From: Styela clava
Taxonomy: Eukaryota; Chordata; Ascidiacea; Stolidobranchia; Styelidae
Direction: 5' to 3'
NCBI RefSeq assembly: GCF_964204865.1
Contig: NC_135250.1
Coordinates: 8,804,001 to 8,868,000, forward strand
Length of the DNA stretch: 64,000 nt
Shown here: piece after piece, positions 27,999 to 64,000 of the stretch
Position numbering within the stretch: the first letter of the stretch is position 1
Layout: each line of letters begins with the position of its first letter
Translations under genes and position numbers: made by a program
The notes under the pieces: model-generated
Told to the model about the DNA's origin: nothing
What the model saw: the letters and a program-made list of their open reading frames with translations, nothing else
Database searches by the model: none

Positions 27999-28329
27999 CT
28001 GAAAATATATAAAGATATTTTACTCAACATTCGAATCGTTCATACACAATAGTTGATCTTATCCGGTATTTGGTAAGACTGTTTCTTATTCGCCATATTA
28101 CTTTATTGATGCCAAATAGCTAACTGATGTTAATATCTGATAAAAAAACGAGACCAAAATACGGAGAATAAATAATACAAACAACATGTATGGTTGCCTC
28201 CAACACACTCTCGGGAGAATTTCTCGCCATAACAATGATGGCGATTTCCACTTATTTCACATATTGTACTTGCACATAACATCATTTTATACAATGGTCA
28301 AGCACGCTTTTCGCTCTTAATCATTTCTG

Positions 28330-28445
28330 GGACCTCCTAAAGTATGCGCACCAAGATAGCGCATAACCTGAACTCAGGTTGTGTACCTGTACCAGGTTAG
28401 GGTTTAGGTTATGCGACATCTTGGTGCGCATACTTCAGGAGTACC
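28330..28445. mobile_element. MITE family M1, copy c
   Basis: The 116-bp foldback begins GGACCTCCTAAAGTATGCGC and ends with the inverted form GGAGTACC. The exact 8-bp duplication CATTTCTG flanks it (28322-28329 and 28446-28453). The homologous site in unit 1 (near 24320) is uninterrupted. Confidence 0.9.
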
Positions 28446-29735
28446 CATTTCTGGAAGGTCGGGATTCTTTCGGACCTCAACCGTCTCAAACATTTAGGGA
28501 TTTATTACAGATTTATCGAATGCTGAAGATGGGTTTGATTTTCAATCTTTAAATGGAATTTAATTATGTAAATAATTCTATTTTCATTAGCATACGAATT
28601 ATGAGTCAAAACAGTAGTTTTGTCGAACAAGTAGTTTTTTCTTGATAAATCTTAAAAAAATTCAAATTGCGATGCATGACGATGTTCAACGGACCTCATT
28701 TTTTGCGAACTATTTAAAAATGTTTAAAAACCTAGTGTTCCGAAAAACTTATTCACATGACAAGCGAATCCAAATAATTTATATATTATTTACCAAGTGT
28801 AAAATGGATTTGATTTGTCATTTCGTTTCGATGTGGCACACGTTCAAATACAATCAAACTTCAAACATTCAAATAATCGAATCTCCCAAGGAATGCTATT
28901 ATGAACAAATTAAGAAATCTAATTCCTGTCACGAAATCCTCTAAATAACCCAAAAGCATAGTTTTTTGTCTGTTTAATAATTATCGAAATAATAATAAAA
29001 GTAGGCTTAATTCTAAAGCTCGTTCGAAAAAATATTAGTCCGATAATTCAGTAATAAATACATCCTTATTGTTCTAACGACATCCGAATTATCTGTCCAT
29101 CGGAAGAGGCATGACGTATGAAATCTTTATTAATCATCATCTTCGGGATTAAGCGCTGTGACAAAAATTAATGATGGACAATTATCACTGACTTAATAAA
29201 GAAAACTTAAAGTAATTATCTCCATTCCAACGAAGCAAATTACCGGTAGTATCAAATTTATTTTTAACAAAATTCACCAAAAATCGAGATTTAAAACAAT
29301 TTTTATTTTCGATTAATTTCACAATAAATTTTGTTCAGTTTTTTTATAGGAATACGTAGAAGTAGTCATTTCCAATGGATTTTATTTTTAAAATACATAA
29401 CGCTACCCACATATTTATGATAAGCTAAATTTTGTTATATTATAGCCGTAACGAATCTTTTGTGAGAGCCTTCACCAAAAAAATACTCTCGTCCTCACTC
29501 AAAATAATAAAATAGTAATTATTCGGTTACAATTTTCATTCATTGATGGAATTCTTCAATGTCAGGGTTAGGGTTAGCGAACGCGCGTCATTAAAAACAT
29601 GGCGAGCACAATATGCAGTATTTTGACGTGGCGGGGCTGTTTTACCCAAATCTCACATTTTTGCATTAGTGGCGGGGCATTTCTACAAAAGATCCGACAT
29701 AACTCGTATAGTATTAGTTTATATCGAAAAATAAA

Positions 29736-32662
29736 AAGTTTATGATGTTTGTTCCATGTATCATTGCTACATTGGTGAAAAAGTGAAAACGAGTGTGATT
29801 CATAAATGTTGAATATATCGGTGTGTAAAAAACTAATATTATTCAGGAGAATAATAATACTCAAGGTTCGAGATATCCATTCTGGCAATCACAAAAAACA
29901 TAGTGTCGCGTTTGACCTAATTTTTCATCCATTGACGTTTCCGTGAAATTACATAAGAAAAAAGCTAAATTATTACATTTAATTTAATTCTTCATTCATA
30001 ATACGTTGTTATTAACATTAATGCCATTAATCGCGCTTTTACGAAAAATGATGAAAATTAACTTAAAAACAAACGAACTATACATTCAAATACGTTCCGA
30101 CGTTCTGTTTTATTAGCCTTGTATTCTTTTCCCTCATTGTATTCGCAGTTTTGTACCGTTACAAGAAAGTAGAAAATATATATTACAATTGTATAAGCAA
30201 ATAAGCCTAAAATAGCGGGTAGGAAATTGCGCACACACAGCGCTCGAAGACATGTGATAGTGGTTTCGGTTTGGTACTAGAATACGTGAGATAGATTGTA
30301 ACCCAAGGTCAGGAAATCCGATCCTGTAAATTTTAACTTTTTCATCTCTGACCCGTTCCCCTAAACTACTAACTCAGCGCCTTCCCTACTCCTCTTTCAT
30401 CCAGTTTTACCAATTTCGACTTCTGAACTTTATATAAACAACATAGTGCTGTTTTCAAGTTCATAACTTCATGTCACTATTCTCATACTGTTCAACATTG
30501 AAATAAAACGATTTATTTTACTGAAAGCAAAGCAGCATCTTCACAAAAACATTTGAAAGATTTGTTGACATGATATAAAATGATACATCGAGAGTTGGAA
30601 CCTCCAACTTGACTAAACAAAAATCTAAATAAATAGCATTCGCAATTGAACTTTTTTTCTATCGTATATTTAAATTTTTTTTGTTATATTTAACAATTTA
30701 TCTTCATGCCTAACGAAGCGAAATTTCGAGGACCAGCAATATAGCCGTAAAAAGCTGGGAGGGTGGACCAAAGACCTCCGACCTAAACTCATTTTGACAG
30801 GTTACCATATTTAAAGTATAACAACATCACAAATATTCCAATACAAACATAAATTGAGAAATTTTGCAGATGGGCAATTTGCGGTAATGATGCAAATAGA
30901 CTGCGGAATATGGACACTTGAGATCGATAGACAGAAAATATAAATATGTGTTGAATGACTTATAGTATTATATGTTTTTTTTTCAAACATATGATTGTAT
31001 TATCTTGAATGTATGTACAAACGGTACAATCAACTATACCAGGGGTGGCCAACCTGCTTTCGACCGCGATCGACTAAAATCTTCAAAATGAATCGCGACC
31101 GACTGATCGGTAACAAGGTCATGAACACTGAATGTGCAGATAACTGTGCACACGCATACAAAAAATCCAACCGCTGCCAATAAGATGATATTGTGGGCAC
31201 ATTGTTATTGAAATCGACACAAAATTTGTATTTTTTATGCTCCATTTAAGTTGGTTATTTGATTATTTAATTGTACCCGCGATTCTTCGCTTGCTTAGAA
31301 TTAGAACAAATTGGGCATTTTGATGCCACTGCTACCATTGCAAATAAAATTTATCACACTACTCTTGGAGTGAGACAACAACTTTCGCATACTACGGAAG
31401 TTATTATAAGATCGTTTGTCAGTCTAGACACGCGATATTCGGCTCTACATTTTTAAACCTTGGCAACGGAAAAACTTGCATGCGTTACGTAATAATATGC
31501 TTTATCGGGCTTGCCAAGACTCAAATGCTGTATGTGTATTTTGCGCCTGTAAAGTACTGTATTCTTCCTGTTGTAAAACACACAACTAGTTCGAGGCAAT
31601 TTTTGGTGGTATTTCAATAAAATTCACTCAACATCAGACGCGAACGACTGCTCGAGATGTGAGGATCGACCGGTCGTTCGCGATCGACTTGTTCGGATTT
31701 GAAAACAACAACGGATGCGCGGTTTGCCTTATTTTCGAATGCTACCATCGCCATATGGGTGTTTTTCTGTGAGTGTTTCAGATCAACTGTACCAAAGAAT
31801 CATAGTCGATTTCATTCTATATCATTTAACAGTGATATAATTTCATAAACTTTCTCCAAACAACAATCCAAGGGTAATAGAATCTAACATGTACATATAA
31901 AGAGTAGCGAATGTATTGAATCGTAACAATTAGGCCTATAAAAAATATTTTTTATAAACTTTATTATAAGTCGAAACTACATAGTCAAATACATATACAT
32001 ATAGATCATAAAAATATTATTATCCTACGTTTCAAAACACTCTTTAAAAGCATATTGCAAAATTTTTCATTATATCAAAGCTTATGAACTGCATAATTAG
32101 GCAGATCAACTGAAAGAATGGTTTACAGTCCTTCCAAACCAGTGAGTCGCGAAGCTGGTGGTGGATCACCGAGCATTCCCAAACTTTTTGTGAGAGCCTG
32201 TCTCTTATCAAGTCAAGATTTAATCTGATAATATCCAATTTGCAAAGCTCAAGTTTCGCATTAATAGCAAATAGCATGGGATACATTGTTTCTTTTCTCT
32301 TATAATAATATCTCATTGTGGTTTGCACAAAAACGACGCAATAAAAGTGGGCCGCGAACTGGAAAACGTTTGGAAGAACTGATTTAGTAGATGTTTACGA
32401 TTTCATTAAATATTTATATGCATAGCACAGAATTCATTTATTCCCATTCATGTGTTTTCATTAAATCAAAAAAGAATACGTTTTTGAAGATTGGCAAATA
32501 TAGATTTGAATTTTATATATACAATGACATTTATATATACATTCGTAATATGGTATGATATGAATATCATACAGATATATATATTTCATGACAATCAAAT
32601 TTATATGGTGTGTATATGTGTTAACGAATAATTGCAGTTCAAAAATGAATCATTTTGATCTA
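29736..32662. other. Intergenic with hAT remnants, no gene seen
   Basis: No gene is seen. A hAT-like terminus CAGGGGTGGCCAACCTGC starts at 31040, followed by GACCGCGATCGAC; related GATCGAC motifs reappear inverted at about 31665-31690, but the closing terminus is missing. The 3' end of the KEN gene lies just to the right. Short frames here show no domain. Confidence 0.45.
32126..32381. mobile_element. Probable hAT-type MITE
   Basis: The left end CAGTCCTTCCAAACCAG and right end GTTTGGAAGAACTG are inverted relatives, with GTCGCGA and CGCGGCCCAC subterminal motifs. This 256-bp arrangement fits hAT, but the flanking octamers agree poorly (4 of 8), so the boundaries are tentative. Confidence 0.5.
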
Positions 32663-33796
32663 TTATTCGAAGTTCATCTCTGGAAGGGGCTTATTGTATG
32701 CTATTTCTTCAGCATTGAACTTCTTGTATGACATCATTTTCGTGTAAATGTGCATGAATAGTTTGGGAAACCTTGTTGAGAAAAAGTTCCAGTAACCAGC
32801 AGCAGAGTTTTCGAAGCATTCTTTCACGGGCTCCCCGTCTTCGTTCATATGCACATATCGATTTCGAAAAAATCGTAAAAGATCGAATATGCATGTTTTT
32901 TCAAATTTGAATTCTCGTTTTGTGTTTTTCTTAGGCTTGGCGAAATCTGAAATCATTTCTATTTTGATTGGTCCTCTGACTCTTCTTCTATTAAGGCGTG
33001 ACATTTCCTGTTTAGTAAGTTTTAATTCTTCTATCCAACCGCCAGGTGGGATCACTCTTGCCGACGAGTCGTCCTTGAACACTTCTTTTGCATCTGTGAT
33101 TTTTTTGCATCGTGTGGTTTCAAATGATTCATTTAAAAAACCAATTTTGTTTTTAGCAGTCCAATAGAAAGGATGTTCAAGTGCTCGCTTGGTATCGTAA
33201 TTTTCAGACATTTTCCGCATCAAGTCCAACGCTATTTCTGGATCTAAACACTTGAAGTCACTTGAGGTGATGTGCTCGCTGAAAACCGTATGAGCTCCAT
33301 TTGTTAGTACAAAACAGTGCAAGTTAGCATTGAAGACCATGTCTCGTTTTACAGAATCGTTGGAGAATTCATAACTTGTCCCGTTTTTGCTGTCGTCACG
33401 TTGCTCTCCAAGGATAATATACCTCTTGTTTTTTACAAAATACACGACAGATGCGTTAAGACTTCCATGGGATGTTTCTTGTTCATGAAGAAGATGTAGT
33501 GCATTCGTGATCTGCAACAAAAGAATTTGGGAAAATTCTGTTGTAAGTTGTTCTTGTCTTCCCCTTGCCGCTGATATCAGTTCCTCCAAGTTTTGGGGTT
33601 CAAGAAATTCTTCAGTGCAATAGTTGAAATTATTTGCATTTTCAGATTCTGGTGGCTTCGAAATAACGGTTGGATAAAATGAAAGTTTCTTATTTGATGA
33701 ACAGTTGGTTTTAATTGCCAGGTCATCACATTCGTTTTCGGCCCCAACGTCCATGTTCGCCTCGCCGTTGTCGTCGTCTGCTGGTTGTTCAGTCAT
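32663..33796 (-). CDS. Pseudokinase-KEN RNase, IRE1/RNase L-like
   Basis: This is an uninterrupted frame of 377 aa. Residues 85-225 resemble the C-lobe of the IRE1/RNase L kinase: the catalytic-loop position reads H-G-S-L-N (110-114, no Asp), the DFG position reads G-E-Q (130-132), then F-V-L-T-N-G (162-167) and H-P-F-Y-W (208-212). So it should be a dead kinase, and the N-lobe is largely absent. Residues 295-355 match the kinase-extension nuclease domain: D-L-L-R-F-F-R-N with Arg311-Asn312 and His316 at the spacing of the catalytic R-N-x3-H of IRE1 and RNase L, then Y-W-N-F-F and R-F-P-K-L. The catalytic Tyr position appears to be Phe. I see no signal peptide, membrane segment or ankyrin repeats. 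The role is probably RNA cleavage on dimerisation. It lies 556 bp downstream of the LRR gene on the same strand. Confidence 0.8.
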   Translation of the reverse strand: MTEQPADDDNGEANMDVGAENECDDLAIKTNCSSNKKLSFYPTVISKPPESENANNFNYCTEEFLEPQNLEELISAARGRQEQLTTEFSQILLLQITNALHLLHEQETSHGSLNASVVYFVKNKRYIILGEQRDDSKNGTSYEFSNDSVKRDMVFNANLHCFVLTNGAHTVFSEHITSSDFKCLDPEIALDLMRKMSENYDTKRALEHPFYWTAKNKIGFLNESFETTRCKKITDAKEVFKDDSSARVIPPGGWIEELKLTKQEMSRLNRRRVRGPIKIEMISDFAKPKKNTKREFKFEKTCIFDLLRFFRNRYVHMNEDGEPVKECFENSAAGYWNFFSTRFPKLFMHIYTKMMSYKKFNAEEIAYNKPLPEMNFE

Positions 33797-34145
33797 TATT
33801 TCATTACTCTGTTACATTTTGATGCGGCTCTTTTAATGCGTTGGTTAGGATTTCTTTCAATATATATACATTTACGATAAGTGAGTTTTAGGCTAGTTTG
33901 TAACTAAATCTATAATGATGAAAAGAAAACGATTTTATATTAATATATACAGTATCAATGGAGTAAAAAGTAACCAGATGATGAATTTATGTAATAAATA
34001 ATGCATATCTCTACGTTTTAAATAAACAGTTTTTGTTAAACTCAACAATCATATTATTAATAAATATGTAAAAAACACAATATAGCAAATACGAATAAAT
34101 ATCATCACTTGCACTTCTAAACTTTCCTATTTATACTTGCAAATC

Positions 34146-34289
34146 GGCGCTCCCGAAGTATGTGTACCAATATGGGGGTAACTAATTTTGTTCGTCTACC
34201 TTACATCACGATGTGTAAAGGGACTGAAACCTATGGGCGGAATAAAATTATGGCCCAACTCAACCCGGTACACATACTACGGGAGTACC
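34146..34289. mobile_element. MITE family M1, copy d
   Basis: The 144-bp copy has the same ends (CTCCCGAAGTATGTG and inverse) but a diverged interior. The exact 8-bp duplication TGCAAATC flanks it (34138-34145 and 34290-34297). It lies between the LRR gene end and the KEN gene. Confidence 0.9.
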
Positions 34290-34351: not shown

Positions 34352-37300
34352 CTAAAAGTTAAAACAATAGTCTGTAGCCAAGAAGTTGATTGATAAAAAC
34401 TTCAGTCTTTTCTTTGCTGTTTCTGTTGCTTCATACATCCATCGTTCAAAATAATTTTCATATTCTAAAAATAAATAAAAGTTTGAAATGATTTTGATGA
34501 AATCTCACCTAACGACAGAATAACTGAAAAGCCTCAGTATATAGTATATGATCTATTGTTAGGATTTCCATTTTTTCAAAGAAAACGAATGTTGATTTTG
34601 GGTATATTACTAAAGTTCGATTTTCATGGGTAGTTTATATACATGAAAAGAAAACGACGAGGTGCAAGTCGCGAATTCTTTTTGGAAGCTCGTATACCCG
34701 CTGTTTGCTTCACAACAAGTATTGGATACGTGGCTTATTGTTATATATGTTTTAGATATATAATATGCACCCACCGTCTTAGAAAGATTATTGAGTTCCT
34801 CCTGCAGTATACTTTTCAAAGATTCATCAAATTTATTGAAGCGCACATGTAGTTCCTCATCGATATTTGGGAGAAGTTCACATATTGCTCTTATGTGCGA
34901 TTCAGTTGCAACACGCTCTTTATCACTAAGATTCAAACATCGCAGCTGTGCGAAATAAAATTTATATTTGAGTTTTAGTTAGCTATAGCACATATATCGA
35001 TATCTACCAATGAAGTATGGAAGTTGTTTATTGTGTTTCTTTGTCTCGGAAAAGTGAAATGCACAACTGAGTCTTGACATGAGTTGAGCGCGGTCATTCC
35101 TGTTTGCAATGCTGATACAACTGAAAAACCCACCTTTCCATATCCAAGCGCTTTTTTGAATCTTCTCACTTGGTATGGCGACAGCATGCACTCACTAATG
35201 TCAAGATCTTTCAGTTTACAATCAACTACAATGTTGGCTATTTCAATAATTCCTTCACCAATCCTAAAATTATCTCGTACATCCATAGCATCCATCTGTT
35301 ATAAAAATTAAAAGAACTTTGTTCAATAACGATTTCAGATACAAATAAGGCCTTTGACCATTCCATATTATTAATAATTCTATATATAACATACTTGATG
35401 CTCTCCGGCGAAGATTCGGAATAATTTGACTTGCATTCTGCCTAGTTTGCATCCTGCCAAACTCAGCTTTTCAACTTGATATTGCTTCACCGTTTTCCCC
35501 AGTGCTTTGAATGTTCTTCTATTCATGAACGGATTGTAGCTAACGTCGAGTTCAAATAGCTAAATATAACAGAATGTGATTCTAGTTACGCAGAAACTTT
35601 AAATATAACAACAGTCTATCACGACGTCATGAAAAAAATTTTGTTAATAAACTTTTTGGCAAAACCAATAATACAACTGTATCGAATTACCTCTCTCGGA
35701 GAATAAAGATATTTTTATTCGTGAATACTCCTTGTTGAAAATCTCGAGTTCAAGACCAACAAGAACAAATTTTCATAAATATTGAATAACTGATTACATT
35801 ATCGAATAAATAAAATACCAAATGATTCTTCATTTCGTTTTACCTTGGCTTTGTCACTGTTGAATCGGCGAAACCTATTAAAACGCCGCTTTGTCAAACC
35901 ACATGAGCTCAATTTCAGATGTTTAACTTTGTTGGTTCCTACCAGCCCTGCGATAGTTTCGAAAGCTTCGTCTTTCATATCTTCGTTGCAACTTACGTCA
36001 AGTTCGTCCAACTATTAAACAGATGTTTGGAATCTCCAATGATAAGTGTTTCAGATAAATTATATTAACGTGGAAATAAGTTGAAATAAATAACAGCAGA
36101 ATACAGTCTATCATCTTGACATGATTTAGTAGCAAATACCCTAAGAGTAAAGCACATCATAAACACACTTCAAATGTACAACTGAGAAAACACGCAAAAT
36201 TAAGGATGAACAGAATGTGTTCAAAAACGAGTGATTCGATGGTTGGGCGAGAAAATTCTGATGAATTACACCCTGAATGCGTTTCCAATAACGAGCAGTT
36301 TATGAAAACTTTGAAGAATTTGATGTTGGACATTAGTTGATTACCATTTGTACTAATTTTACCACCAATTACCTCGGCAGCACCCAAGCCTTCACTAAAC
36401 TTTTTCAGTTTATTAGAATCCACGTCACAGTCAACAGCTTTGAATGTTTTGCTTCCGCACTTTCTGAGGATTTTCCCCATAGTTTTATACGCCCCCTCGC
36501 TAATATTCTTGTTATAACTGACATCCAATTCGTTCATGTGGGTGATCTAAAAGTAATCTTTAATATTATGAATGGGAAATAATGGTGGCTTTGAATGCAG
36601 GGTAACTTTAACCCTACCTACATCTATCCACGTAACGCGAAGTATTGTCTTGTTGGTGATACTATGAATTGAAACTTCGAACAGCACATTCAATCTTGTT
36701 TGTAATCGAATTTTGTTTAATATATAGCAATAAATCAACGTCATGCCCCGATATTTAAATATTTGTGAATTTGTAGTGACTAGACTGCTGATTTAGTCGA
36801 TGCTAACGTTTTTGAAGAAGGATGATTAAACCAATATTGACTCAATTTCGTACATGTTTAGTTCCGCAACAGTTAAGATCTCTGCCATAGGAGTATAACT
36901 TTACTAAAAAGTGGAAATCATAATTTCTGATTCGGTTGAAAAACATAGTTTAGTTTTGAAATCTGGAAACTTTATCCAAATTCAAGAATGCTTTTACGAC
37001 TCAATATCGGAGATAAAATAGGAAACATTATATTAAGAGTCTTGAGGCTTTATATAACTCATCAATAAGAATTAGGACGCTTTGTGGGGTGGTGGTGGCC
37101 TTTGTGGCAAGTATACGAAGGAGATCAAATCAAAACAAATCAAAATTGTAACATGATTCTTTGACAATTCAATCCATTGTTTTTAATTGTATCAGAAAGT
37201 CGAACAAAAAAGGTGATTTAATTCTAACGAACAAATAAATATTCCCCACCAATAAAAACTAGCGAGAACATATTAATATCAGAAATGATTTTTTAATCGC

Positions 37301-40300
37301 ATGGCTATTGATTTGTCAAATCCTATAATCAAATTGGATGATAACTTGAAACTGTAGAATTCTTAGCGATAAGCAAACAAGATGATTCCATTTGTTTTAC
37401 AAATTATTTCAAAACATTCAATGATGGAATCATCAGTCATCGACGGATATTAAAAAGAACTTTGAACCTGATCATTCTAGCTGTTTAATTGATGTTTCAA
37501 TTTTTGCTACTCAACAATTACCTTTTCATCGGCGAGACATTTTTCAAGTTTGTTCACAACATCGTCTTCTAGTTCATCGTTTTCAATGCACAGTATTTCT
37601 GATTTATACACAGATATGGATTTGCAAATTGATGGAACTAGGCTTTCGATTCCATCTATATTGCTCACAGTAAACTTTTTGATCTAGAAACAAATAACAA
37701 AAAATTTGGTATTATTACTGAAAACTAGTATGTGGAAACATTGTTAAGTTTACAGTAATTTCAGGTGACCCCATGAAAATACAATCAAGAGGATCAGTCT
37801 TTATATGATTCGAAGTTGCGAAATATCTTTTGTACTTTGTGTATACAATAATGTGGTATTTTAAGAGTGAATTCACGCGATGTATTTTTCTGTACCTGTA
37901 CCACAACTATTTAATCTAATATATTGAAAGACTAACTTATCAATGTAAATGTGAAAACTGGTACTGATCATACCTTGCATTTCGTATTTCGAGTTTGTTC
38001 AAGCAATAACTCAAGATGCTTTGGATTCATTTTGCAACTGCGAAGTGCAAGCTCTTCAAGTTTGCTGCGCAGAAGAACAGTTTGGGATAACACTTTGATA
38101 TCGGGTTCGGTTAAACGATGCTCATATATACCAATTTCTTTTATGCACGATCGTATAAGATCAGGAGTCGCGTTTATGGCACCAGCGAGTACGGTAAGTT
38201 GTTGTCGACTGCTTTTAGTATTTTTCAGAGCTTCCATGAAGGTTTTCTCTGCAAATTTGTAATAGTGATAGTAACAAAGACTAAAGCAATTTTATAATAA
38301 AAATAAAATGTCACGGCCTATTTTTTCAAAAAAAAAAACACAAAATACTCACCTTCCCGTGATGGCATTTTATATTCTTGGTCGTTATCAACGTGCACAA
38401 GAATCTTAGAGCATGTTTTTTCTATCTTGTTATCTTCTGGAAGTTTGATGAAGGCTTGAATTTCTGGGTCAAATAGGTATTTAAAGTTCAATAACGAGTT
38501 TTTTTTTGGTTTATGATAAAGCTGCATAGTAAAGACACAAAAGTAAAATAAAATTTGATTCAGGGGAATTGTACATTATTTTTGGGTGCTCCCGAAGTAT
38601 GCGAACCAAGATGGCGGACATCGCAATGTAATATGTGTACTAGGTTAGGGTTAGATCATAATTTTAGGTATAAATACTACGAGAGGCTCTTGGATAGTCT
38701 TCGAACTGATAATAGGACTAAAATAAGGAAAATTGGAAAAAAATTGTCGCCTAACCCTAACCTGTTACCCATGTTACGTTCCGATGTCCGCCATCTTGGT
38801 TCGCATACTTCGGGAGCCCCAATTTTTGAATATGGGATAATTATATTATACTAGCCATTTGCTTTGATGTTGTTGTTATTTTTGGGATGCTGATTACCGC
38901 TTATTTCATAACTGCCCACAAAATCGTTTTGGGTACTATTCTCCGAATGGGAAATTGGAGACTGGAATCGTATTTTCTTTAACTCTGCTGCAGATAAAAA
39001 CCAGTGATTATTGGACAATATTGTAGACCAGGGTTTCCCAAACTTTTTGAGCAGCGGACCCTTATTTGTGAATCTTAGTTTCACGCCGTATCAATTTCTG
39101 TGCCTAACTAACGAAGAAGCATAAATGTTTCATTTACAACACGAAAGTCATGAAAAAGGGATTCATTGCACAATTTATCGTTTCTCGGAGCAATTTCTGA
39201 CGAGCAAACTCGTAAGTCCGACTCTACAGCAAGCCTCGACCTGTATTTTGTCATCATATTGGTAAGAGCTGCCTCACACATGTAAGTCGTTGGAAGAGGC
39301 AATTTTTTAATTGCCTTTTCTAACAGCAATGGATATTCGTCCGCAACGCTCAACCATAAGGATGCAATGGCTCGTTGGTTGAAATCAATCATTAAATATC
39401 GATCGGTCTCTTTCATATCGTTGCGGACCTCCTGTGCAGCCATCACGGACCCCCCGGGGGTCCGCGGACCCCCGTTTGGGAAACCCTGTTGTAGACTATA
39501 ATACGTATTTTGAGATGTTTCATATTCTAAAAATTCATCCGCACTTTTCGTATTGTACACTTATTCAGAAGTATTTTAAAATATTCAAATTTTAGGTTCA
39601 TCTTGTAAATGTAGTTTGCATATTTCACATATATACGTGGCAATTTTGGATATGTAACCAGCCAATTTTGTAAAACATGACATCCGTTCACTCACCATTC
39701 GGCTCTTCCTCTTTTTTGTTTTTATCGTCGTGCAAAGGCACGAAGTATTCGTGTGTTTTAAGCTCTGATTCTTTATCATTCGCCGAAGAATCAATCTTTT
39801 TCGATTTATTTTGACATTCGTCTGAAATATTTTTCAAATATTTTTTAGTTTCTCGATCAGGCCATCCGCGGCTTGATATGATTATTCCGCATATAAACTC
39901 GATTTTAACTCTGGCGTGGACAAATAGTGGGAATGTCGAGGCAAAGAAGCAATGTATGTTTTTAAATGATTCCTGAAAGACATTATTCGCCCGTAACACA
40001 CACCGAATATCTTATATTTTCAGTACATACGGTGTGTTCGTGCACAATCGAAAATGGTTCTCAAGGTTTATCTAATTAGGTGCTATTGAATGACTAGTGA
40101 AGTATTAAACTTTCCAGTAATATTTGCGAAAATGATATACATAGATCTGTAAGCCATATTTTTTGTTTTGTTTTGCGATGCTCATATATACCAATTTCTT
40201 TTATGTACGATCGCATACTATTCATAAGATCTGAAGAAGTCATGTTCATGGCATCAGCGAGTTGTTGTTGGTTTTTAATATTTCTTAGAGCTTCCATGAA

Positions 40301-44198: not shown

Positions 44199-44520
44199 AA
44201 TAGACCTTAGTCATTTAAAACCCATCCCACGCGCAAAAATAAAAGTGATGTAAAAATTTTATTTTTAACATTAGCTCTTATGGGAAATGTGATCACCAGA
44301 GCAGAAATTTGCATTATTTGGGATTTTCTAGATATGTTTCATCGTATACGTGTGCAGTTTTGAGGATAGAATATTTTTTACATTATTTTTGATATTTTTA
44401 TCATGATAAACATGGTCAAGATATTTGATAATCGTTCATTAAATTTTTAATGATCGCGGTGTTTCCGATGACGTCATTCTCACTAGACCATGTGATTCTG
44501 CCAATTCGCCGTGCTCTGTG
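44199..44520. repeat. Left arm of a 2.4-kb inverted repeat
   Basis: About 322 bp here are repeated in inverted orientation at 46325-46647 with roughly 90 percent identity by eye, for example CCGATGACGTCATTCTCACT and AGATATGTTTCATCGTATAC. The arms enclose about 1.8 kb. Confidence 0.88.
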
Positions 44521-46324
44521 GGATATGCGCTGCAAATGCGGCGCTAATGTCGCTTTGGGTACGGTACCGGTACTGGAAGCGTTTAACATTGACAATCTAT
44601 AACCCATACCATTTCTATCACGTTTGTTTACTGGTTTTACGCATTTATACCTGTACCGCTTGCAATCATTTACTGAAGGCATGCTGACGTGTTATTTAAA
44701 CTACCGGTACCGTACCAAGGTTGCAAGAGGTGCAAACTAAATTATTCAGTAAATACTGAAATAGGCCTACGAACAAAAATGTTGGCGAGCCTGCCAATAG
44801 GCAGGATAAGTTATACGGTACCGGTATACAAAAAAGATGAATATCTCCAACCTATAATGGTACAATACCGGTCTTCTAACAAGGTTAAAAACATGACTGA
44901 ATACGAGAGAGAGATTTATTTCATCAACCAGAATACAAGCATTGAATCAATAAAAATTATATACAAAACACACAGTTATTCGGTATAGACTGGGGAGCGA
45001 TACGACCATCACAGTCAGCTCAACCCAGCCCCCCCCCCCCATGTTCGCTATCAAGATTAACAGTTAATTACGATGTTTAAACAATTTAACAAAAACTCCT
45101 TGAAGGAAGGGTTGACTGAGTTACGGAATATTTTTGGATTCGGTTAAACATGTAGTCCATTATTAAACCACTGCTTTTTTTTGTAGATTTTCACTTAGTG
45201 AACACTTAGCAAGTGCGACAGTTAATTTATAAAAAAAAAATTATAAATTAATAACAAATCAGTAGAAGTCAGCTCGGGTATTCAAACATGTGATGATTGA
45301 AGTGAGAAAAAAATTTGAAGTCACGTTTAGGCTATCACATTAAACAACAATGGAAAAGGTACATTGGAATCAGTCAAGCTTCAAATGCTAATGGCATTAA
45401 TGAAAAGAGTATGCGAAATGAAGACTGAAGTTTCCATCTGAGACATTGGAAGACGCTAAAACCTTATAGACTTGATAGTGTGTAAAGCCTTCTCACAATG
45501 CAGTAATAATGGGACATATATTTATAATATCATTATACAGGCTTTAAGTTGAACAATATGTGAAATTAAAATATCTATCTTTGCTAATAAATGCTGAAAC
45601 CATTTATTTCAATCTGCTGAGTGATTAGGGCTAGATTTTGCTGTATGGACCATCACCAGGGCTGGATTTACCAATAGGCTAGGCAGGCTGAAACCTAGAG
45701 CCTCGAAATTCGGTTTCGAAATTTGTAATTCTTTTGAAAACTTGCCACGTTTAAACCCTACGAAATGTATATATATATCAAGCTTTTCAGAGTAGAAAAT
45801 TCTGTACACAACTGGTTTCAACCACAGCATCATAATAAGGGAAATTATTATTATGCGCATTCTGCTGGAAGTTTCTATGTCAAAGTATGGCTGTAGCGGT
45901 TGTTTGATCAAAGAAATTGAAAGCAAAACTGCCTCAAGTAAATTTTTATTCCTTTAATTAAAAATTCACACCCATGAACGGGGAGAATGAAAAATTTAAT
46001 GCACTCATATTTTTAAATTTGAAGCAATGACATGCGGTGTTGTTTAGAGAGAAATTCTTAGCTCAAAAATATGAAAGGGGCCTCGCATGGTCTAAATCCA
46101 GCCCTGAACATCACCAATTTTGGTATAGGTACATGGTGTCAACAAGACTCAACATATGAACTGAGTTAGGCCATTGGATTTTGAAAGATGTACCAGAAAT
46201 GTACATATTTGCATGGAATTCATGAAATATATAACATCCAATAAAAACCAAAATAGGTATTTCGTTGAACGCCAGTTGTGGTCCCGGTACCGGTATTCCA
46301 GTATTCTGTTATCACAAGCAGTTT
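44521..46324. other. Interior of the inverted repeat, no gene
   Basis: The interior holds TACCGGTAC-rich sequence (44560-44860), a run of C at about 45030 and a hAT MITE at 45657. The frame at 44689-44988 (+) has no recognisable domain, and none of the others do either. Confidence 0.45.
45657..46106. mobile_element. hAT-type MITE
   Basis: The 450-bp element begins CAGGGCTGGATTTA and ends with the exact inverse TAAATCCAGCCCTG. The flanks ACCATCAC and AACATCAC agree at 7 of 8. It sits inside the larger inverted repeat and has no coding capacity. Confidence 0.88.
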
Positions 46325-46647
46325 CCACAGAGCATGGCGCGTTGGCAGAATCTCATGGTCTAGTGAGAATGACGTCATCGGAAACACCGCGATCATTAAA
46401 ATTTTAATGAACGATAATCAAATATTTTGACCATGTTTATCATGATAAAAATATCAAAAATAATGTAAAAAATATTCTATCCTCAAAACTACACACGTAT
46501 ACGATGAAACATATCTAGAAAATCCCAGAAAATGCAAATTTTTGCTCTGGTGATCACATTTCCCATAAGAGCTAATGTTAAAAAAATATTTTTACATCAC
46601 TTTCATTTTGGCGCGTAGGATGGGTTTTAAATGACTAAGGTCTATTA
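46325..46647. repeat. Right arm of the 2.4-kb inverted repeat
   Basis: This is the inverted partner of 44199-44520. Its outer end (TAAGGTCTATTAG) lies within a few bases of the insertion point of the hAT element at 46651. Confidence 0.88.
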
Positions 46648-49350: not shown

Positions 49351-50674
49351 ATGGCTAAAAATAGCCTAGTTTGGAATTCCAATAGAAAGAAAGATATACT
49401 TTTAGAAGGTACGTAAAGTGCAAGTAGTAACGGGCATTAAATTCAAACCAGGTTCTAATAGTTTAATATAAAAGCAATATAAACGAACATGTGAAACAAC
49501 TTTTTCTCGAATTTGATTGAAGGAAGAAGTTTGTGGCCCTTTTTCATAGCCTGCTGGCGATTATTACGGGATATTTAGGTTGTCATGGCAACATAGCCGT
49601 GCAGCAAGCATAACAGGAAATCCCGCTCCCGCAGCCATTTTCCAAATTTTTTGGTTCAAGCAATATTTTAACCATATTTTAAATACCGAAAATATATCTA
49701 ACTTTTCTGATTTAATTCACTTTCATATTCCAGAAAGAGGGAGATCTTTGGCATCACAGGGAAAATTTTATGAAGCTATCACGGTACTGGAAGAGCTTGA
49801 TACTGTGGAAGACAGTGATATTGGAATCGAACTTCTTATGATAGATTGTTACTTACAACTTGGAAGAGAAAATAAGGCAGATAGAATAATTAATCACGTT
49901 AGGGAGATAATATTTTCCAAGCCTATGTGCGATGTAAACGATGTTATTGAGTTAGCGGATCACTTTATAGAGGATTCTTGTACTGTACGTGCATTGATAT
50001 TGTTTAGGATTGCTAGTGATATGTATATACATTCTTCTGCTTCTCCCGCTGAAGCAATGGATGGTATTTTTCGTTGTATGCAAAAAATGCAAAATCCAGT
50101 TAGAGAAATGTTGAATTTCGATAAGGAACCGAAGGGCACCCAAGATTTAGCCGGCCTCTTCAAGAGTCTTCAACATTTACTGAATACTGGCGATATATCT
50201 CGTGCATCACATCCAAAAAAGTGGCAGAGGAAAAGTGCCCGAAGCAGAATAATTGCAATTGATTTTGGTGTGGAATACATGATGGAAATGCTGGATAGTC
50301 TTCGTACATTGAAAGAAGTCGATTTAGATGAAAAGGCTTTGAAAATGGCATGGTGTTCCAATTATATAGGATATAATTATGCCCAAGTAGATGAATATCG
50401 GAAAACTTTGAAAATTTTGAACAATGGTATTGATAATCTGGAAAAACATTTTGGCAAGCAGGCTTCCATTTACAACGTCTATGGTACACTGCTTACCAAC
50501 GCCGGAGCAGCATTGCATAATTTACAAAAGTATGGTGAAGCTGAAAAAATTAAAGTTAGAGCCCTCACTGCAAAGGAAGATGCAACTGATTACAAAGATA
50601 GAAATGAGAGAAAAAGAGCAATTGAGGAAATACGCGATTCCCTGAAGATAACACGCCAACATATGACTATGTAA
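49351..50674 (+). CDS. TPR-repeat protein, paralogue 1 (no UIM)
   Basis: There are two exons: 49351-49408 (ATG, 19 codons, ending D-I-L-L-E before a GTACGT donor, phase 1) and 49734-50674, totalling 332 aa. The in-frame ATG at 49580 lies in the intron and is not used in this model. TPR-like helices fill residues 20-80 (F-Y-E-A-I-T-V-L-E-E-L; D-C-Y-L-Q-L-G-R-E-N) and 260-320 (L-L-T-N-A-G-A-A-L-H-N-L-Q-K-Y-G-E-A-E). A mid-protein block has D-F-G-V-E-Y. TPRs are protein-binding scaffolds, probably cytosolic here. It shares its exon 2 structure with the paralogues at 53106-54156 and 58173-60831, but its first exon replaces their UIM and linker exons. The family is not named; the first exon rests on splice phase and homology only. 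Confidence 0.75.
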
Positions 50675-53105: not shown

Positions 53106-54156
53106 ATGGAAGAAAACAAATATGATATTCTACAAAATTTTATTTTGGAAGGTAGATATCATTTTGAATGTTGACTATTTTGAAATAATACTATTATTTA
53201 ATTTTCATGCGATTACTTTTTCAGAAAGAGCACGTACCCTAGCGCTACAAGGAATGTTTTACGAAGCAACCTCTCTCTTGGAAGAGTTTACGAACACGAC
53301 AGAAATTGATTTCGGTGTGGAACTCCTTCGAGCCGAGTGTTACCTTCAGCTTGGAAGAGAAAATAAATCCGAAAAATGCATAGAGCGCATTGAGCAATTA
53401 TTATCAATGCCACCGATGTGCGATGCAACAGATATTATTTCGCTAGGAGATGAATTCATAAAAAATGATTTCCGTGTTAAAGCTTTAATTCTCCTGAAAA
53501 TATCGTGTGATATAGTTCAAATATCATCCTTGCCTCCAGAAAAGATTTTTGAAATAATGTGCCTATGCTTCTCAAAAATTGACGATGTGGTGCGACCAAT
53601 TCTAAGAAAAAAGACGTCAAATAGTAATACGGAAAATCTACTTGATATGATCAAAAACTTAGGTAGGGGGTTGACGGACGGTACAGATTCTATCGCTAAG
53701 CCAAAGCTGCAAACGAAAATGAGCGAGCGCGTGCGAATTATTGCTTTGGACTTTGGCTTGGAATACTTACAGGAAATGCTGAAAACACTTGAAAATTTCA
53801 GTGAAATCGATCCCGAAAGGAAAGCTTTGAATATAGCTGAATGTGCTGTTATGCTGGATTGTGACTTTGATGCGGCCGGCGACAACGTCAAATCCCTGAA
53901 GTTTAACAAGATTGGAATTGAGGTTTTAGAAAAACAGTTTGACACATCTGCACTGCGATACAAATTGTATGCCAACCTGCATCAAAATGCAGGTGTAGCT
54001 CACTATAATCTGAATAACTTTAAAAAAGCAGAACATCATTTCTTGCAGGCCATATCGGCGCATGAAAGCGCATGGGACTACGATGACGAAAACGAACGTC
54101 GAAACATAATTCAAAAGGCACAGTCTGACCTTAAAGACACACGACAGCTTTTATAG
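53106..54156 (+). CDS. TPR-repeat protein, paralogue 2 (no UIM)
   Basis: There are two exons: 53106-53151 (M-E-E-N-K-Y-D-I-L-Q-N-F-I-L-E, then a GTAGAT donor, phase 1) and 53225-54156, totalling 325 aa. The downstream ATG at 53122 would read through the intron. Shared signatures are E-R-A-R-T-L-A at the exon 2 start, E-C-Y-L-Q-L-G-R-E-N, D-F-G-L-E-Y and a C-terminal T-R-Q. One clear TPR is L-H-Q-N-A-G-V-A-H-Y-N-L-N-N-F-K-K-A-E. The first exon matches only the last part of the exon before the TPR exon in the UIM-bearing paralogue (D-F-V-I-E), so the N-terminus was shortened. Likely a cytosolic scaffold; partner unknown. Confidence 0.78.
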
Positions 54157-55463: not shown

Positions 55464-57029
55464 TATGGTGGCCCATCGTTGTCACGTGTGAAATTTAAAA
55501 AAAAAATGAAAAAATAAAATGAAAAAGCGAAAATAAAAAAATAGTTGTGAAAAAACATAAAAATAATTGAAAAAAAAGAAATAAAAAAAAATTGAAATTA
55601 AAAAAAAAATTGAAAAATAAAACAAAACACAAAAAATTAAAAAAAAATTAAAATTAAAAAAAAAAATTAAAAAAAAAATTGGATAAAAAGAAAATAAAAA
55701 GGTTGACAACGATGGTCCGCCTCGTGGCCCATCGTTGTCACGCGTTTTTATTTTTGGAAAATTTGATGCTGCTTGGGACCAACGTTGTCAGGCTTAATCC
55801 TACACGCACAAATGTGTTTCCTGGGTTTCTAACTCACTACTGATTTTCTTGAGCAATATCCAATAAATTCAACATGAAAATGTTCTATAAATTTTCCCTG
55901 CTACAAGTTCAACCACAAGCAATATATTTATAATAATGATAAGAGAATATAGAATTGGATACGAAAATTTGTTTTTACGTGTAGAAGGTAATTTAATTGG
56001 AAAATGCTGCTTAACTGCTCAGACACTCGTGCGATGCCGGTACGGTACCGTCTGATCGTACCGGTACCCATGCAATCACTCGTGAAAGAATGGGAGATAC
56101 GGATAGTCTCGTAGAATATAGTCTACTGAAACACTCTTTGCGCCTGCCCCATACCGTACAGCCGTAACGTACCGATCCAGACAAATGATAAATCGCCCGT
56201 GCTCAACCATTTATTTCAATCCATACCTCGACTCACTATATTCTACTAGGATCGAGATATGGATTGAAATAAATGGTTGAGCACGGGCGATTTATCATTT
56301 GTCTGGATCGGTACGTTACGGCTGTACGGTATGGGGCAGGCGCAGAGAGTGTTTCAGTAGTCTATATTCTACGAGACTATCCGTATCTCCCATTCTTTCA
56401 TGAGTGATTGTATGGCTACCGGTACGGTCAGACGCAAAGCGACTATAACCGACTACCGGTATTTGGTAAGACGGTACGGTACCGGCATCGCGAGTGTCCA
56501 GACAACTGGGTAGTTAAGCAGCATTCTCCAATTAGATTACCTTATACACGTAAAAACAAATTTTCGTATTCAATTCTATATTCTCTTATCATTATTATAA
56601 ATATATTACTTCTTGTTGAACTTGTAGCATGGAGAATTTATAGAACATTTTCATATTGAATATTGCTCAAGAAAATCAGTAGTGAGTTTGAAACCCAGGG
56701 AACACATTTGTGCGCGTAGGATTATGCCTGACAACGTTGGTCCGAGGCAGAAGCAAATTTTCTAAAAATGAAAACGCGTGACAACGATGGGCCACGAGGC
56801 GGACCATCGTTGTCACCTTTTTATTTTCTTTTTATTCAATTTTTTTTTTTTAATTTTTTTGTTTTTCAATTTTTTTTTTTTGTTTTTATTTATTTTTTTT
56901 TAATTTTAATTTTTTTTTTCATTTTTTTTTTAATTATTTTTATGTTTTTTTACAACAATTTTTTTATTTTCGGTTTTTTATTTTATTTTTTATTTTCAAT
57001 TTTACGCGTGACAACGATGGGCCACCATA
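55464..57029. mobile_element. Large near-perfect palindrome (foldback element)
   Basis: Two arms of about 770 bp are inverted copies of each other around a 20-bp loop centred near 56241. Identity is high along the arms. The main difference is about 50 bp present only on the right, near 56430-56480. The termini are TATGGTGGCCCATCGTTGTC and its inverse, as in the element at 15311. TACCTGTA lies at both borders (55458-55465 and 57030-57037), as a target duplication would. Each arm contains a second internal pair of the GACAACGATGGNCC motif around an A/T-rich foldback, so the palindrome is nested. The frames at 55482-55709 and 56768-57136 are only these A/T runs. No transposase is encoded. Confidence 0.92.
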
Positions 57030-58172: not shown

Positions 58173-60831
58173 TCATTTGAGATGCTGTCGAGTAACTTTG
58201 AGCGCTTGCTTCACCAATTCGACGTCTCGTCGTTTGTCATTATTGTCGTCGTGATCCACAGCGTTTTCCTTCGCTTCAATTGCTCTGACGTAAGCTTTCT
58301 CAGCTTCCCTGTATTTTTCTTGATTGTGGAGCACAATTCCTATATTATGCAACAATATGCCGTAAATTTTATGCAGCGATGCTTTTGCGCCGAACAACTT
58401 ATCCATTACGGCAATGCCACTACTTCTGACTTTATCACTCTTAGCGTTTTCTCCCATAGCTGCAAGCTCGAATCCAATATAATTGATGCACCATGCTTGT
58501 TTCAAAGTTTGTCTGTCTGGATCAGCTCCTTCTACAGTTTGTAAATCTTCAAGCATTTGGTTCATGTACTCAACACCGAAATCTAAGGCTAAAATACGTT
58601 TCATATCTGCTCCAACAGTTGGCCTTTGATTGGTTGAACCCGCAATGATGCTTGTCGGATCCGATAAATTTTGAAGCAATCTTTGTAGCTTCGCACCACT
58701 ATTCTCTGGCTCTATCATCTCAGTGATTGCATGATGCATGAGCGCCATTGACCGGAAAATGTTTTCAACTTTATCGTCAGGCTTAAGGCTGGAATCTTTT
58801 ACAGCCACGTCACTTGCAATTTTATACAAGATCAGAGCTTGAACGTGGCACTTATTAGCGGTTAGCACTTGTGCGAGATCTAATATCTCATTTACGTCAG
58901 TGAATGAAGACTTCAAAATCATTTTTCTGATTCCATTTACGGCTTTTGTTGCTTTATTTTCTCTGCCCAGTTGTAAATAGCAGTCTGCAATCAGTAGTTT
59001 CACTCCAAATGTAGTATCTTCCATGTCCAGTAACTCCTCTAGAATCGAGGTTGCTTCATAATACTTGGAATTGGACGCAAGTGCTCTAGCTCTTTCTGTA
59101 AACAAGAAGAACTGTATGAGTGGCAATGTAGATCAAAGTACTGAATGAAAACTCTGTTGGAGTATACTGGCACCCCGTCTTAATATGCATGGACACAACT
59201 GGATGTTGAGGCCATTTTTGTACAAGCTACTTTATCAATTGGTATGTTTGAATAAGCAACAGTAACTTATTTTACCTTCAATAACAAAATCTCTTTTCAG
59301 GAGAAGGATGGCACTGTCTTCCTCTGTTTCAGCAGTACTTGGTGTCTGTATGGTGTAATCATGAACGAAGTTGCTTATACCAGCAGTGCCAGACGAAGTG
59401 GATAATTCTGAAAAATGAATGAAAAGTAGTGTAGTATATAATCAATATTACCACTGGAATAGCATTACACAAAAGAAAGTCTAACAAGCTGTTTGGACGT
59501 GCATTATATCAAGACGGTATACCAACAAACGCCTATATTTCGGTATAACGTTTATCATTGGATATTACATTTTTACACTTTATTCTTTTCTAATAACTCT
59601 CTGAATGATGGATAAACTATGAAACGTTTCCATGGGAATTTAAAATCTCACCATTGCTTTTATCTCCACCAGCAGAACTGAGAAGGTTTCCCATCATAGA
59701 ACTGAGTGAACTCAAGTCGCTTAAGTCCGGTTCTTGAACGAGAAAAATTTGCTTAATAAAAGGGATACACTCATTCGAATATATTTTTGACTGGGAACAA
59801 TAAGTATGAAGCTGCTATATTTTACTAAAGGTTTGTAGAGTTCGACTCTTCTCTGGATGAACAGTTGTAAAACTCTAACAGTGTTGAATACGAAAATTAA
59901 TTCCGAGACCTTCAACTATAGCTACGATAACCAAATTATATATATATAATGATAGCCAGCGCCTGGGACGCCTCTTTCGTTTATACTGGACATAAATAAT
60001 TCTGTGAATAAGGGTTTCATGATCATTAAGGAATTTTAAAATCTCACCATTGCTTTTATCTCTGCCAGTAGAACCCAGAAGATTTCCCAGCATAGAGTTC
60101 AATGAACTCAAGTCAGGTTCTTGAAAGAAAAATTTGCTTAATAATAAAACATATGCAGAAACAAAAAATTTTTTTGTGTTTTACATTTTGGCGTCACTAA
60201 AGACAGTCCACGCAAGCGGTATGCAGTCAAGCATGTGCCTTAAAAGGAATACTATCTTGAATATTGACAAATAGTAGGCCTACTTTTTCACTTCGGCGAG
60301 ATGATACTATTCGGGTCGCTGTGACCTTGTCCGATACTGTGTGACTAGCTATAAAAACATGTTATGCTGTAAGTCAGGGATGTGCAACCGTTGATGCATG
60401 AGAGTCAGATAGAAATAGCTGGCTAAAACCGCGGGCCGCACCTGCTCTTAACATGGGTTTTTTAGTAATTGCAGGAACAAATTTGGTTATTCATCTTATG
60501 GCATGCATTGTTCGGTTGACACAAGCTAGTGTTAGGGCGTTGTTAATATTAAATAGTGTGTAAAATCAATTTGGATCGGTCAATTATATCTATTTATTCG
60601 TAAATAAGCAGCAGTCTCTGAATAGGATATCGAGTCACAGGTATTAACTAGTAAACCATCCAACCAAATACAGATTTACATCGCTGCTCAATATACCCAC
60701 ATCTCTTTAAAATTGATGATAAATAGCCTACCTGCTACTGCTGGAATCATTGAGGTTCCAGGTTGTGCATCATTAAGGCTGCTTCTGAGAGCTGCCTGTA
60801 ACATTGCTTCTTCAATAGCCTCGAGATCCAT
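58173..60831 (-). CDS. UIM plus TPR protein, paralogue 3
   Basis: There are five exons: 60831-60732, 60119-60048, 59732-59652, 59407-59276 and 59095-58173. All donors and acceptors fit and every intron is phase 1, giving 435 aa. Exon 1 encodes a ubiquitin-interacting motif: E-E-A-M-L-Q-A-A-L-R-S-S-L-N-D, with core L11, A14, S18 and D21 matching the consensus. Exons 2 and 3 are tandem copies of each other (P-D-L-S-S-L-N-S-M and P-D-L-S-D-L-S-S-L, both ending D-K-S-N). Exon 5 carries the TPR body: D-C-Y-L-Q-L-G-R-E-N, D-F-G-V-E-Y-M, and a clear TPR, L-H-N-I-G-I-V-L-H-N-Q-E-K-Y-R-E-A-E. The likely role is an adaptor that links ubiquitylated cargo to TPR partners. It converges on TPR paralogue 2. 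Confidence 0.82.
60375..60460. mobile_element. hAT-like terminus in intron 1 of the UIM-TPR gene
   Basis: CAGGGATGTGCAACC followed by GCGGGCCGCACC resembles a hAT left end with its subterminal motif. No closing terminus was found, so this is a fragment at best. Confidence 0.35.
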
Positions 60832-61689: not shown

Positions 61690-64000
61690 CAGTGGCGGCG
61701 TGCGACAACCGGGGCAAGCTACTGCGGGACCAAGTCACCCCCATCTACGGGGAAAGGATGAGCGCTGTAAGTTCTCCCATCATTTTATGAGTATAAAAAC
61801 CATTCCATCGGTAACAACCAATCGGCAAAAGCGACAATTTTTAAGGATAAGAAAGTGTCTTTAAAACCGGTCCAAGTCAAGGGATTAATAAATATAGACA
61901 TAGTTTATTTTGAAACCTCTTTCAAAAGGAAAGGCAATATTTACCCAGATAAATACAATGACATATTAACAGAAACTTCGGGAAAGCAGACAAAACCTAA
62001 AATAAGGTTTAAAACGTTACTATGAAGAAAGGAAAGGTAATGCAAAGATAAGGACATGCGTCGCTCACTCATAGGTATATATGCTGCTAGACTTCTACTG
62101 CTTGAACATATATGCAACACGCCGCGGTTTCTTGGAAGCAAAATGCTCAATAACGCGCTGGTTAAAGTCATGCATCCCAGAAATAACGTCTCTGTGAATG
62201 GATAAAACAGCCAAGGAATTTAATCTATCTTGCTTCATTGTGTTTCTGAGATACGTTTTAATACGCTTCAGCGTGCTGAATGTTCGCTCTGCGTCGGCGG
62301 AAGAAATAGGCGTCGTCAAAATGATGTCCCGAAATTTTGCAGACGCCGCAAAGGTAGTTACTAGAGTGTTATCTATGAGGAACCCATAGAGCGCGCAAGT
62401 TGATGTGATGTTCAAAAAAGTTTGATTGGTGTATATACATCGCAATTCATTTTCCAATTTACCCACGTTCATCATGGGGTAAAATTTGGAGACAGTAGCC
62501 AACAAATGGATGGGAAATTGACGTGCAAATTTTGAAAAAATTTTGGGGTTCATCAAAGAGAACGCGGCAAGGTGTTCAGTGCGCAGACGATCGCCTATTC
62601 GATTCACCAGAATGTCACAGCATTTCTTTGCAGACAAAATCAAACGCTGCGTTGTTTGCCCGCGGCGTAAAGAAGCACTTCATGTGTCGTCGTATTTTAT
62701 TGTTTCCCGGATACGAGATACAGCATCGCAGAAGTCTGAAATACACGACTGCACAGACGCTCCATCCATTAGCCTTGACTGCAATGCGCCGTATAATACA
62801 TCCACGTGATAGAATATTGTGGAGAAAAAATGAAAACTCACCATCTTCTAGCAGACGCTTTAGACCTGCCGCCTCCCTCACAGAGCGTTCGTCCCAAACC
62901 GGAGAGCTCTGAATGCCATTGAAACACTCAATGAGCTCAGACTTAATTTCGGACACGCCCTGCACCACGCGTGATTGGAAGTTCCAACGTGTTGGTGCAC
63001 AAGCTGGGAGACGGCGGCTACATATCTGGCGAAGGAGGTCAGAGCGCTTCGGCGAAACGGAAAAAAATGAAGAAGACCCCGAGACATTTGCAAAACATAT
63101 ACGGACGAGAGGGGTATCAAGACACATATTTTTAATAACGAGGTTAAATTGGTGTGCATAACAATGTAAAAAATGCGCATGAGGAAAATCTTCTTTTATA
63201 TAAGCTTGAACACCATGTTTCGACCCACTCATGACTGCCGCGCCGTCATAAGTTTGAGCTATCAATTTTGACTTCGCGTTGTAAGGCTGTAACACTTCTT
63301 TCAGTACAGCCGATATCCCGCAAGCCGTGCGATCAACGATTGGTACAAAGCTGTGAAATCTCTCGGTAGATTTACCATCTTTCACAAACCGAAAAATCAC
63401 AGCCAGTTGGGAAACGCACGTGATGTCAGTTGTCTCGTCAGACTGAATCGAAAGGAACTGGCAAATCTCAATTTCCAGAGCCAAATGTTGTAAATAAATT
63501 TTATACATTGAGTCGAGCAAATCATTTTGGATATCCTTAGATGTCCCTTTCCAAACAGTTGCGGCATCAAGATGATTTCTCAATACTGTATCTAGGGATG
63601 CGGTGTATTCCATCATATCCAAAAATACCCCTCTATTAGAAGAGCCAGCCTGTTCATCGTGCCCACGGAGGGACAGCTCGTGACAACCAATGAACTTCAA
63701 AACATCTATCAATCGACCGAGAACATGGCGGTTTTTCTCGACGTTTTGGTTGTGCCGACGAATAGAAACCGCGCGTCCTTCATCCATCTGTGCTGCAATA
63801 TTAACATTTCCGAATGTTCGGTATTTTACTGCATTGTCCAGATGCTCCATGGAAGATTGATGATCCCTGGCACGCTCGGAAAGATGTTTAAGATCTCTAA
63901 AACCAAATTTACACCAACGTGAGTCACGGGCGGTAGCAAAAAGTAGGCAATAAAAACAAAAAAGTGCATTTTTGTCCTCGCTGTAACACAACCATTCGTG
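61690..64000 (-). mobile_element. hAT transposon, ZMYM1/TTF type (partial)
   Basis: One terminus, CAGTGGCGGCGTGCGACAAC, starts at 61690. Downstream lies a reverse-oriented transposase (62095 to the window end). The other terminus and the target duplication lie outside the window; the left flank octamer is GGTAGGGG. Confidence 0.75.
62095..64000 (-). pseudogene. ZMYM1-like hAT transposase, frameshifted, partial
   Basis: The minus-strand frame enters from beyond the window with a TTF-type zinc finger: E-W-L-C-Y-S, F-C-F-Y-C-L-L-F, G-F-R-D-L, then H-Q-S-S-M-E-H. Next come the RNase-H-like core with S-D-E-T-T-D-I, T-Y-D-G-A-A-V-M-S-G and H-C-Y-A-H-Q-F-N-L, and the C-terminal hAT dimerisation block S-S-A-D-A-E-R-T-F-S-T-L-K-R. 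A one-base frame change occurs at about 62805 (the family continuation H-V-D-V-L-Y is in another frame), and an in-frame TGA follows near 62687. The damage is light, so the copy died recently. Active relatives may exist elsewhere in the genome. Confidence 0.85.

Follow-up and report, generated by a model that had tools for sequence, protein, structure and literature searches.

The window, a 64,000-nucleotide stretch of the Styela clava genome (C1:8804001-8868000 of 376.6 Mb), carries on its minus strand a complete open reading frame, P0001, at 32663..33796, identified from the frame itself and from a match to the Ribonuc_2-5A profile PF06479 as encoding a pseudokinase-KEN protein of 377 amino acids. 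As an earlier note on this DNA had proposed, the protein occupies a single exon: we recovered exactly this one reading frame, and its stop-to-stop length of 382 aa compares with a maximum of 300 aa in 200 simulated windows, generated from a second-order Markov model with the same composition as the real window. An in-frame stop codon lies 15 nt 5′ of the ATG (33812..33814, minus strand), placing the first methionine five codons past the stop; in the 13 other members of the clade described below this distance is 3–18 codons. The stop rules out an in-frame fusion via upstream exons, barring an acceptor within the ORF or within those 15 nt, and our scan found no acceptor-like site reaching its criterion within 160 nt of the ORF's start. 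The N-terminal stretch of P0001 resembles that of a single-exon relative, L028 (tblastn, match from window position 33775, E 2e-5), which makes a stray intron unlikely. Outside the frame, an acceptor-like AG preceded by 13 pyrimidines out of 15 (33910..33911, minus strand) would start an exon 113 nt before the ATG and is a possible 5′UTR or trans-splice acceptor, and an AATAAA polyadenylation-type signal (32437..32442, minus strand) begins 221 nt past the stop codon. A one-exon build is ordinary in this genome, where IRE1 is also one open frame.

The C-terminal part of P0001 is a KEN domain (approximately residues 254–360; 32717..33037, minus strand). PF06479, the sole Pfam domain found in the protein, matched residues 289–358 (core match at 32723-32932) with an E-value of 9.6e-16; the score, 58.5 bits, exceeds the cut-off of 23.3. 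The earlier note had described Arg, Asn and His at the catalytic spacing of this domain, and our alignments bear this out: the motif RNRYVH at residues 311–316 (32849..32866, minus strand) lines up with the RNKYHH and RNKKHH motifs in two IRE1 chains, putting R311, N312 and H316 in the IRE1 register. When P0001 was searched against the PDB with phmmer, IRE1 chains came first, from 4.2e-8 (2rio, from yeast) to 3e-6, and RNase L came last at 0.0025. In P0001 the place of the IRE1 catalytic Tyr is occupied by F298, such that activity could be weak. The roles of the IRE1 residues H1061 and R1039 are given in passages of PMC8104961. Parts of PMC3710099 define the motif of the KEN/HEPN superfamily as R-x4-6-H with a polar residue after the R, which R311, N312 and H316 satisfy as a HEPN-type R-x4-H, and describe KEN and its kin as metal-independent RNases; RNase L works as a dimer, according to passages of PMC8104961 and PMC4730318.

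Ahead of the KEN domain lies a degenerate kinase (approximately residues 40–253; 33038..33679, minus strand; boundaries drawn by eye), comprising a beta4/beta5 strip, a C-lobe and an HPFYW end, and recognized through the alignment of clade A1, to which P0001 belongs, and a profile match to the IRE1 kinase. Searched alone, this part of P0001 had no hit in Pfam, Pkinase included, even with E-values up to 10 allowed, and its best PDB match had an E-value of 0.14. With the A1 family profile the likeness is now significant: its C-lobe stretch matched the IRE1 kinase of 2rio at an i-E of 2.6e-14, and the whole profile matched IRE1 at 7.3e-30, RNase L at 8.5e-18 and PKR at 1.9e-6. The alignments also confirm that the catalytic motifs are destroyed, with HGS (residues 110–112; 33461..33469, minus strand) at the HRD position and GEQ (residues 130–132; 33401..33409, minus strand) near the position of the DFG, which is absent, and with an activation segment that is short and mostly missing. 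By eye, nothing similar to the glycine loop of the N-lobe stands ahead of the beta4–beta5 strip. The suggestion that the nucleotide trigger has been lost holds for the usual nucleotide-binding motifs, but a lysine remains aligned at the VAVK place, although without the helix C glutamate.

The remaining structural claim of the note, that the protein has neither the luminal and membrane part of IRE1 nor the ankyrin repeats of RNase L, agrees with our searches. Neither P0001 nor the 9.9 kb upstream yielded a luminal, transmembrane, ankyrin or N-lobe part; a three-frame Pfam search of that upstream stretch, on the same strand, was empty at 0.01, and the maximal hydropathy over 19 residues was 0.86 in P0001 compared with 2.21 in IRE1. 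Using 18 kinase-KEN ORFs as tblastn queries against the window, we found that 17 matched within P0001, the only exception being L010 (nothing below E 0.8); none of the 18 matched significantly elsewhere in the window, the best match outside P0001 having an E-value of 0.044 (L016). A missing N-lobe exon, sought through the upstream Pfam scan and the tblastn of relatives, was not found within the window. Among five upstream exons of relatives, one (that of L024) had matches at other places in the window, with E-values as low as 3e-9; because these matches nearly always involve its first ~37 residues and lie partly on inverted repeats, we read them as a repeat. The inverted-repeat element at 38.6 kb is similar to part of the L024 upstream ORF. 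One of the five exons matched fn3 (PF00041, E 1.3e-8), upstream of the kinase-intact KEN ORF at L033:5473-5862 (minus strand), and the comparable upstream exons of L024, L030, L034 and L035 fell below Pfam significance. Such exons may belong to the kinase-intact KEN genes.

Several other features share the window. On the same strand as P0001, a row of LRR-like exons of a neighboring gene was seen by eye at 34400-36600, with no Pfam match; fusion of P0001 to these exons was considered and rejected, given the in-frame stop and the lack of early acceptor-like sites. Three long TPR-like ORFs (49550-50671 and 53107-54153 on the plus strand, 58176-59132 on the minus strand) are paralogous, with a mutual identity of 38–44%, and a hAT transposase dimerization region (PF05699) lies at 62098-62679 on the minus strand. 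Inverted-repeat elements at 38585-38820 and 28328-28447, and also near 34146, belong to one sequence family, and matches between plus- and minus-strand ORFs mark inverted self-similar stretches at 44200-46600 and 55500-56800.

The gene is not the single free-standing curiosity that had been supposed, but one of at least 28 dispersed kinase- or pseudokinase-KEN loci in the genome. A profile search, with 46 candidates scored, placed PF06479 matches at no fewer than 42 places (all genome counts of KEN domains are lower bounds): one in IRE1, 12 pairing into six tandem copies on C3, of which the one looked into (L040) is multi-exon, and 29 at the 28 other loci. With P0001 as the query we obtained at least 34 genome matches, four of them at places absent from the PF06479 list; of two of these, one is an ORF that by eye closely resembles L015/L016 and ends early in the KEN domain, and the other is a kinase-KEN ORF with altered motifs. 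The IRE1 of this genome (L009) reads open without interruption over 1268 aa and matches Pkinase, KEN and beta-propeller-type profiles; it is a separate frame on another chromosome (C5), and P0001 is not a fragment of it. L009 also has a long C-terminal tail. Elsewhere in the genome, exons for GH6 (C9:16179895-16180164) and GT2 (C9:16177256-16177639) stand 2.3 kb apart on one strand. Cellulose synthase fused to GH6 in a single gene is a hallmark of tunicates, and the exon pair suggests a genome of this group.

The 28 loci comprise 14 in clade A1, 11 kinase-intact relatives (A2) and three in neither: L018, whose frame is broken, L014, a KEN fragment, and L019, with kinase and KEN in different frames. 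PF06479 was matched by all 14 members of A1 and all 11 of A2, and Pkinase at E 0.01 by 2 of 14 and 11 of 11, respectively. In a tree of 28 sequences (all loci but L018, plus IRE1) built from kinase and KEN together (403 columns), the 14 pseudokinase-KEN ORFs formed one clade with an ultrafast bootstrap of 98; the KEN-only tree (121 columns) was weaker, excluding L027 and L036 from the clade and supporting the remainder at 68. Within A1, all 14 members retain H316, 13 retain R311, 12 retain N312 and 11 have the full set of three, and intact HRD and DFG motifs each occur in none of the 12 members that span the catalytic loop (L012 and L022 do not). Across all 28 tree sequences, R is present in 27, N in 26 and H in 25. 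In A2, the K, E, HRD H and R, N, D and G residues of the kinase do not vary, partly by construction as the group was chosen for its kinase motifs; the KEN R and N are invariant as well, and the KEN His is replaced by Tyr in 2 of 11 members (L021 and L023), as is the catalytic His of the KEN fragment L014. Of the two A2 members with this change, L021 has intact-looking kinase motifs and L023 has HRN. Given these opposite losses, of kinase motifs in A1 and of the KEN His in A2 and L014, the two halves of the protein seem to decay in opposite directions depending on the branch.

We next consider the constraint on these copies. Among seven close clade pairs, which are unsaturated and partly overlapping (one member, L012, is itself decaying, and an eighth pair, L028/L025, is saturated), dN/dS ranged from 0.23 to 0.77 and was below 1 at p < 0.05 in 9 of 14 domain comparisons. 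The pairs L020/L032 and L020/L026 were not significantly below 1 in either domain, and the near-identical pair L026/L029 gave a dN/dS of 0.94, from ten changes. The KEN domain was tighter than the pseudokinase part in L012/L015 (0.23 vs 0.41) and L020/L025 (0.44 vs 0.62), but not in L025/L026 (0.59 vs 0.49) or L025/L032 (0.53 vs 0.50). The window gene is 23–39% identical to its 13 clade relatives in the KEN domain and 16–28% in the rest, and as its dS is saturated against them, selection on it can be judged only qualitatively: pN was lower than pS in every one of the 13 KEN comparisons (p between 9.5e-4 and 6e-21), and replacement change was significantly below silent change in 12 of 13 pseudokinase comparisons. 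Decaying copies include L012, L018, L019 and L051. By these sequence comparisons, the family is under loose purifying selection, with birth and decay of copies.

On the sequence evidence assembled here, P0001 is probably a sensorless, IRE1-derived pseudokinase-KEN RNase whose dead kinase serves as a dimerization scaffold; it would be cytosolic, metal-independent and able to cut RNA as a dimer, perhaps in antiviral defense. Because control by nucleotide and by phosphorylation looks lost, we infer that the dead kinase is a scaffold and that regulation comes through expression or a partner: the kinase would read neither nucleotide nor phosphorylation and would act only to pair two KEN domains, and activity, having no built-in trigger, would be set by the amount of protein, through induction of its expression, or by association with IRE1 or a relative whose kinase is intact. 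A role in defense, antiviral or other, would amount to RNase L-like action minus the 2-5A-sensing ankyrin part, and is suggested by the pattern of birth, decay and divergence of copies and by analogy. Expanded KEN proteins are predicted to be catalytically active defense RNases in the part of PMC3710099 that treats them, a proposal which the Styela clava family fits. Viral relatives were considered and rejected, the single pattern match being unconfirmed.

The same residues could be read differently. P0001 might be a regulator and not an enzyme, pairing with IRE1 or a kinase-intact relative to block or tune it, as a dominant-negative or decoy, or binding RNA without cutting it. The exchange of Tyr for Phe at the catalytic site, the loss of the kinase motifs that normally position the dimer, and the three of 14 clade members without R or N all point this way; however, a pure decoy would have no need of the histidine kept throughout the clade or of the nearly invariant R311, and the KEN domain is the tighter part in some close pairs, though not in others. 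On balance we think a regulatory role rather unlikely. The opposite losses in A1 and A2 also allow the expansion to be pictured as a split system, in which kinase-kept relatives that are losing the RNase and the RNase-kept, kinase-dead clade must pair, the kinase partners acting as sensors or switches for diversified RNase effectors, but we hold this to be improbable.

Two further readings deny that P0001 is a complete working gene. The visible decay of other copies (L012, L018, L019 and L051) and the absence of kinase motifs count in favor of its being itself a copy in decay, or a pseudogene, derived from IRE1 or a relative and still open by chance. Such an origin is quite improbable, as the frame, open for more codons than any ORF of the simulated windows, and the catalytic residues are intact despite saturated synonymous divergence, and the loss of kinase motifs is common to the whole clade. 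P0001 could instead be the final exon of a larger gene for a sensor, joined for example to the LRR-like exons seen by eye at ~34.4-36.6 kb on the same strand, or be missing a kinase N-lobe, and some kinase-intact relatives do seem to have upstream exons, including the one at L033 with its significant fn3 match. We regard this as very improbable: the frame is closed by a stop 15 nt before the ATG, with no adequate acceptor-like site early in the ORF; the upstream Pfam scan was empty; the kinase-KEN relatives match inside P0001, 17 of 18, and none significantly elsewhere in the window; and the N-terminus itself resembles that of the single-exon L028.

The kinase domain of IRE1 and of RNase L is generally regarded as the switch that controls RNase activity. 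A clade without the nucleotide pocket and activation segment, yet with the RNase residues, offers a natural way to test if the kinase fold matters solely as a scaffold, and, should the proteins prove active, RNase L-like effectors would have evolved in an invertebrate chordate apart from the vertebrate 2-5A system. IRE1 (ERN1), the best PDB match, shares with P0001 the order of C-lobe and KEN and the catalytic R, N and H in register; P0001 differs from it in lacking the luminal sensor, transmembrane helix, glycine loop, HRD and DFG, and in having Phe for the catalytic Tyr. RNase L likewise has a pseudokinase followed by KEN and no membrane part, but its ankyrin repeats were not found in P0001, and the A1 profile matches it more weakly than IRE1 (8.5e-18 against 7.3e-30). 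Arabidopsis IRE1C keeps an intact kinase. Described in part of PMC6788458 as an IRE1 relative without a sensor domain, it shares the loss of the sensor with P0001 and differs as a plant IRE1 isoform. Among the open-licence PMC matches listed, there was no prior ascidian paper on such a pseudokinase-KEN family. The closest parallel lies in the kinase-less, lineage-specific KEN expansions of the tunicate Oikopleura and of monocots, known to us by description in passages of a 2013 paper (PMC3710099), in which KEN has likewise multiplied without a recognizable kinase, in a tunicate among others, and is predicted to be active and defensive. Styela clava differs from that description in that the degenerate kinase is still visible by family profile and kinase-intact relatives coexist with it; as far as our searches show, what is new relative to the printed account of Oikopleura is a kinase-dead, RNase-kept clade standing beside kinase-kept relatives, together with the detail of what each has lost.
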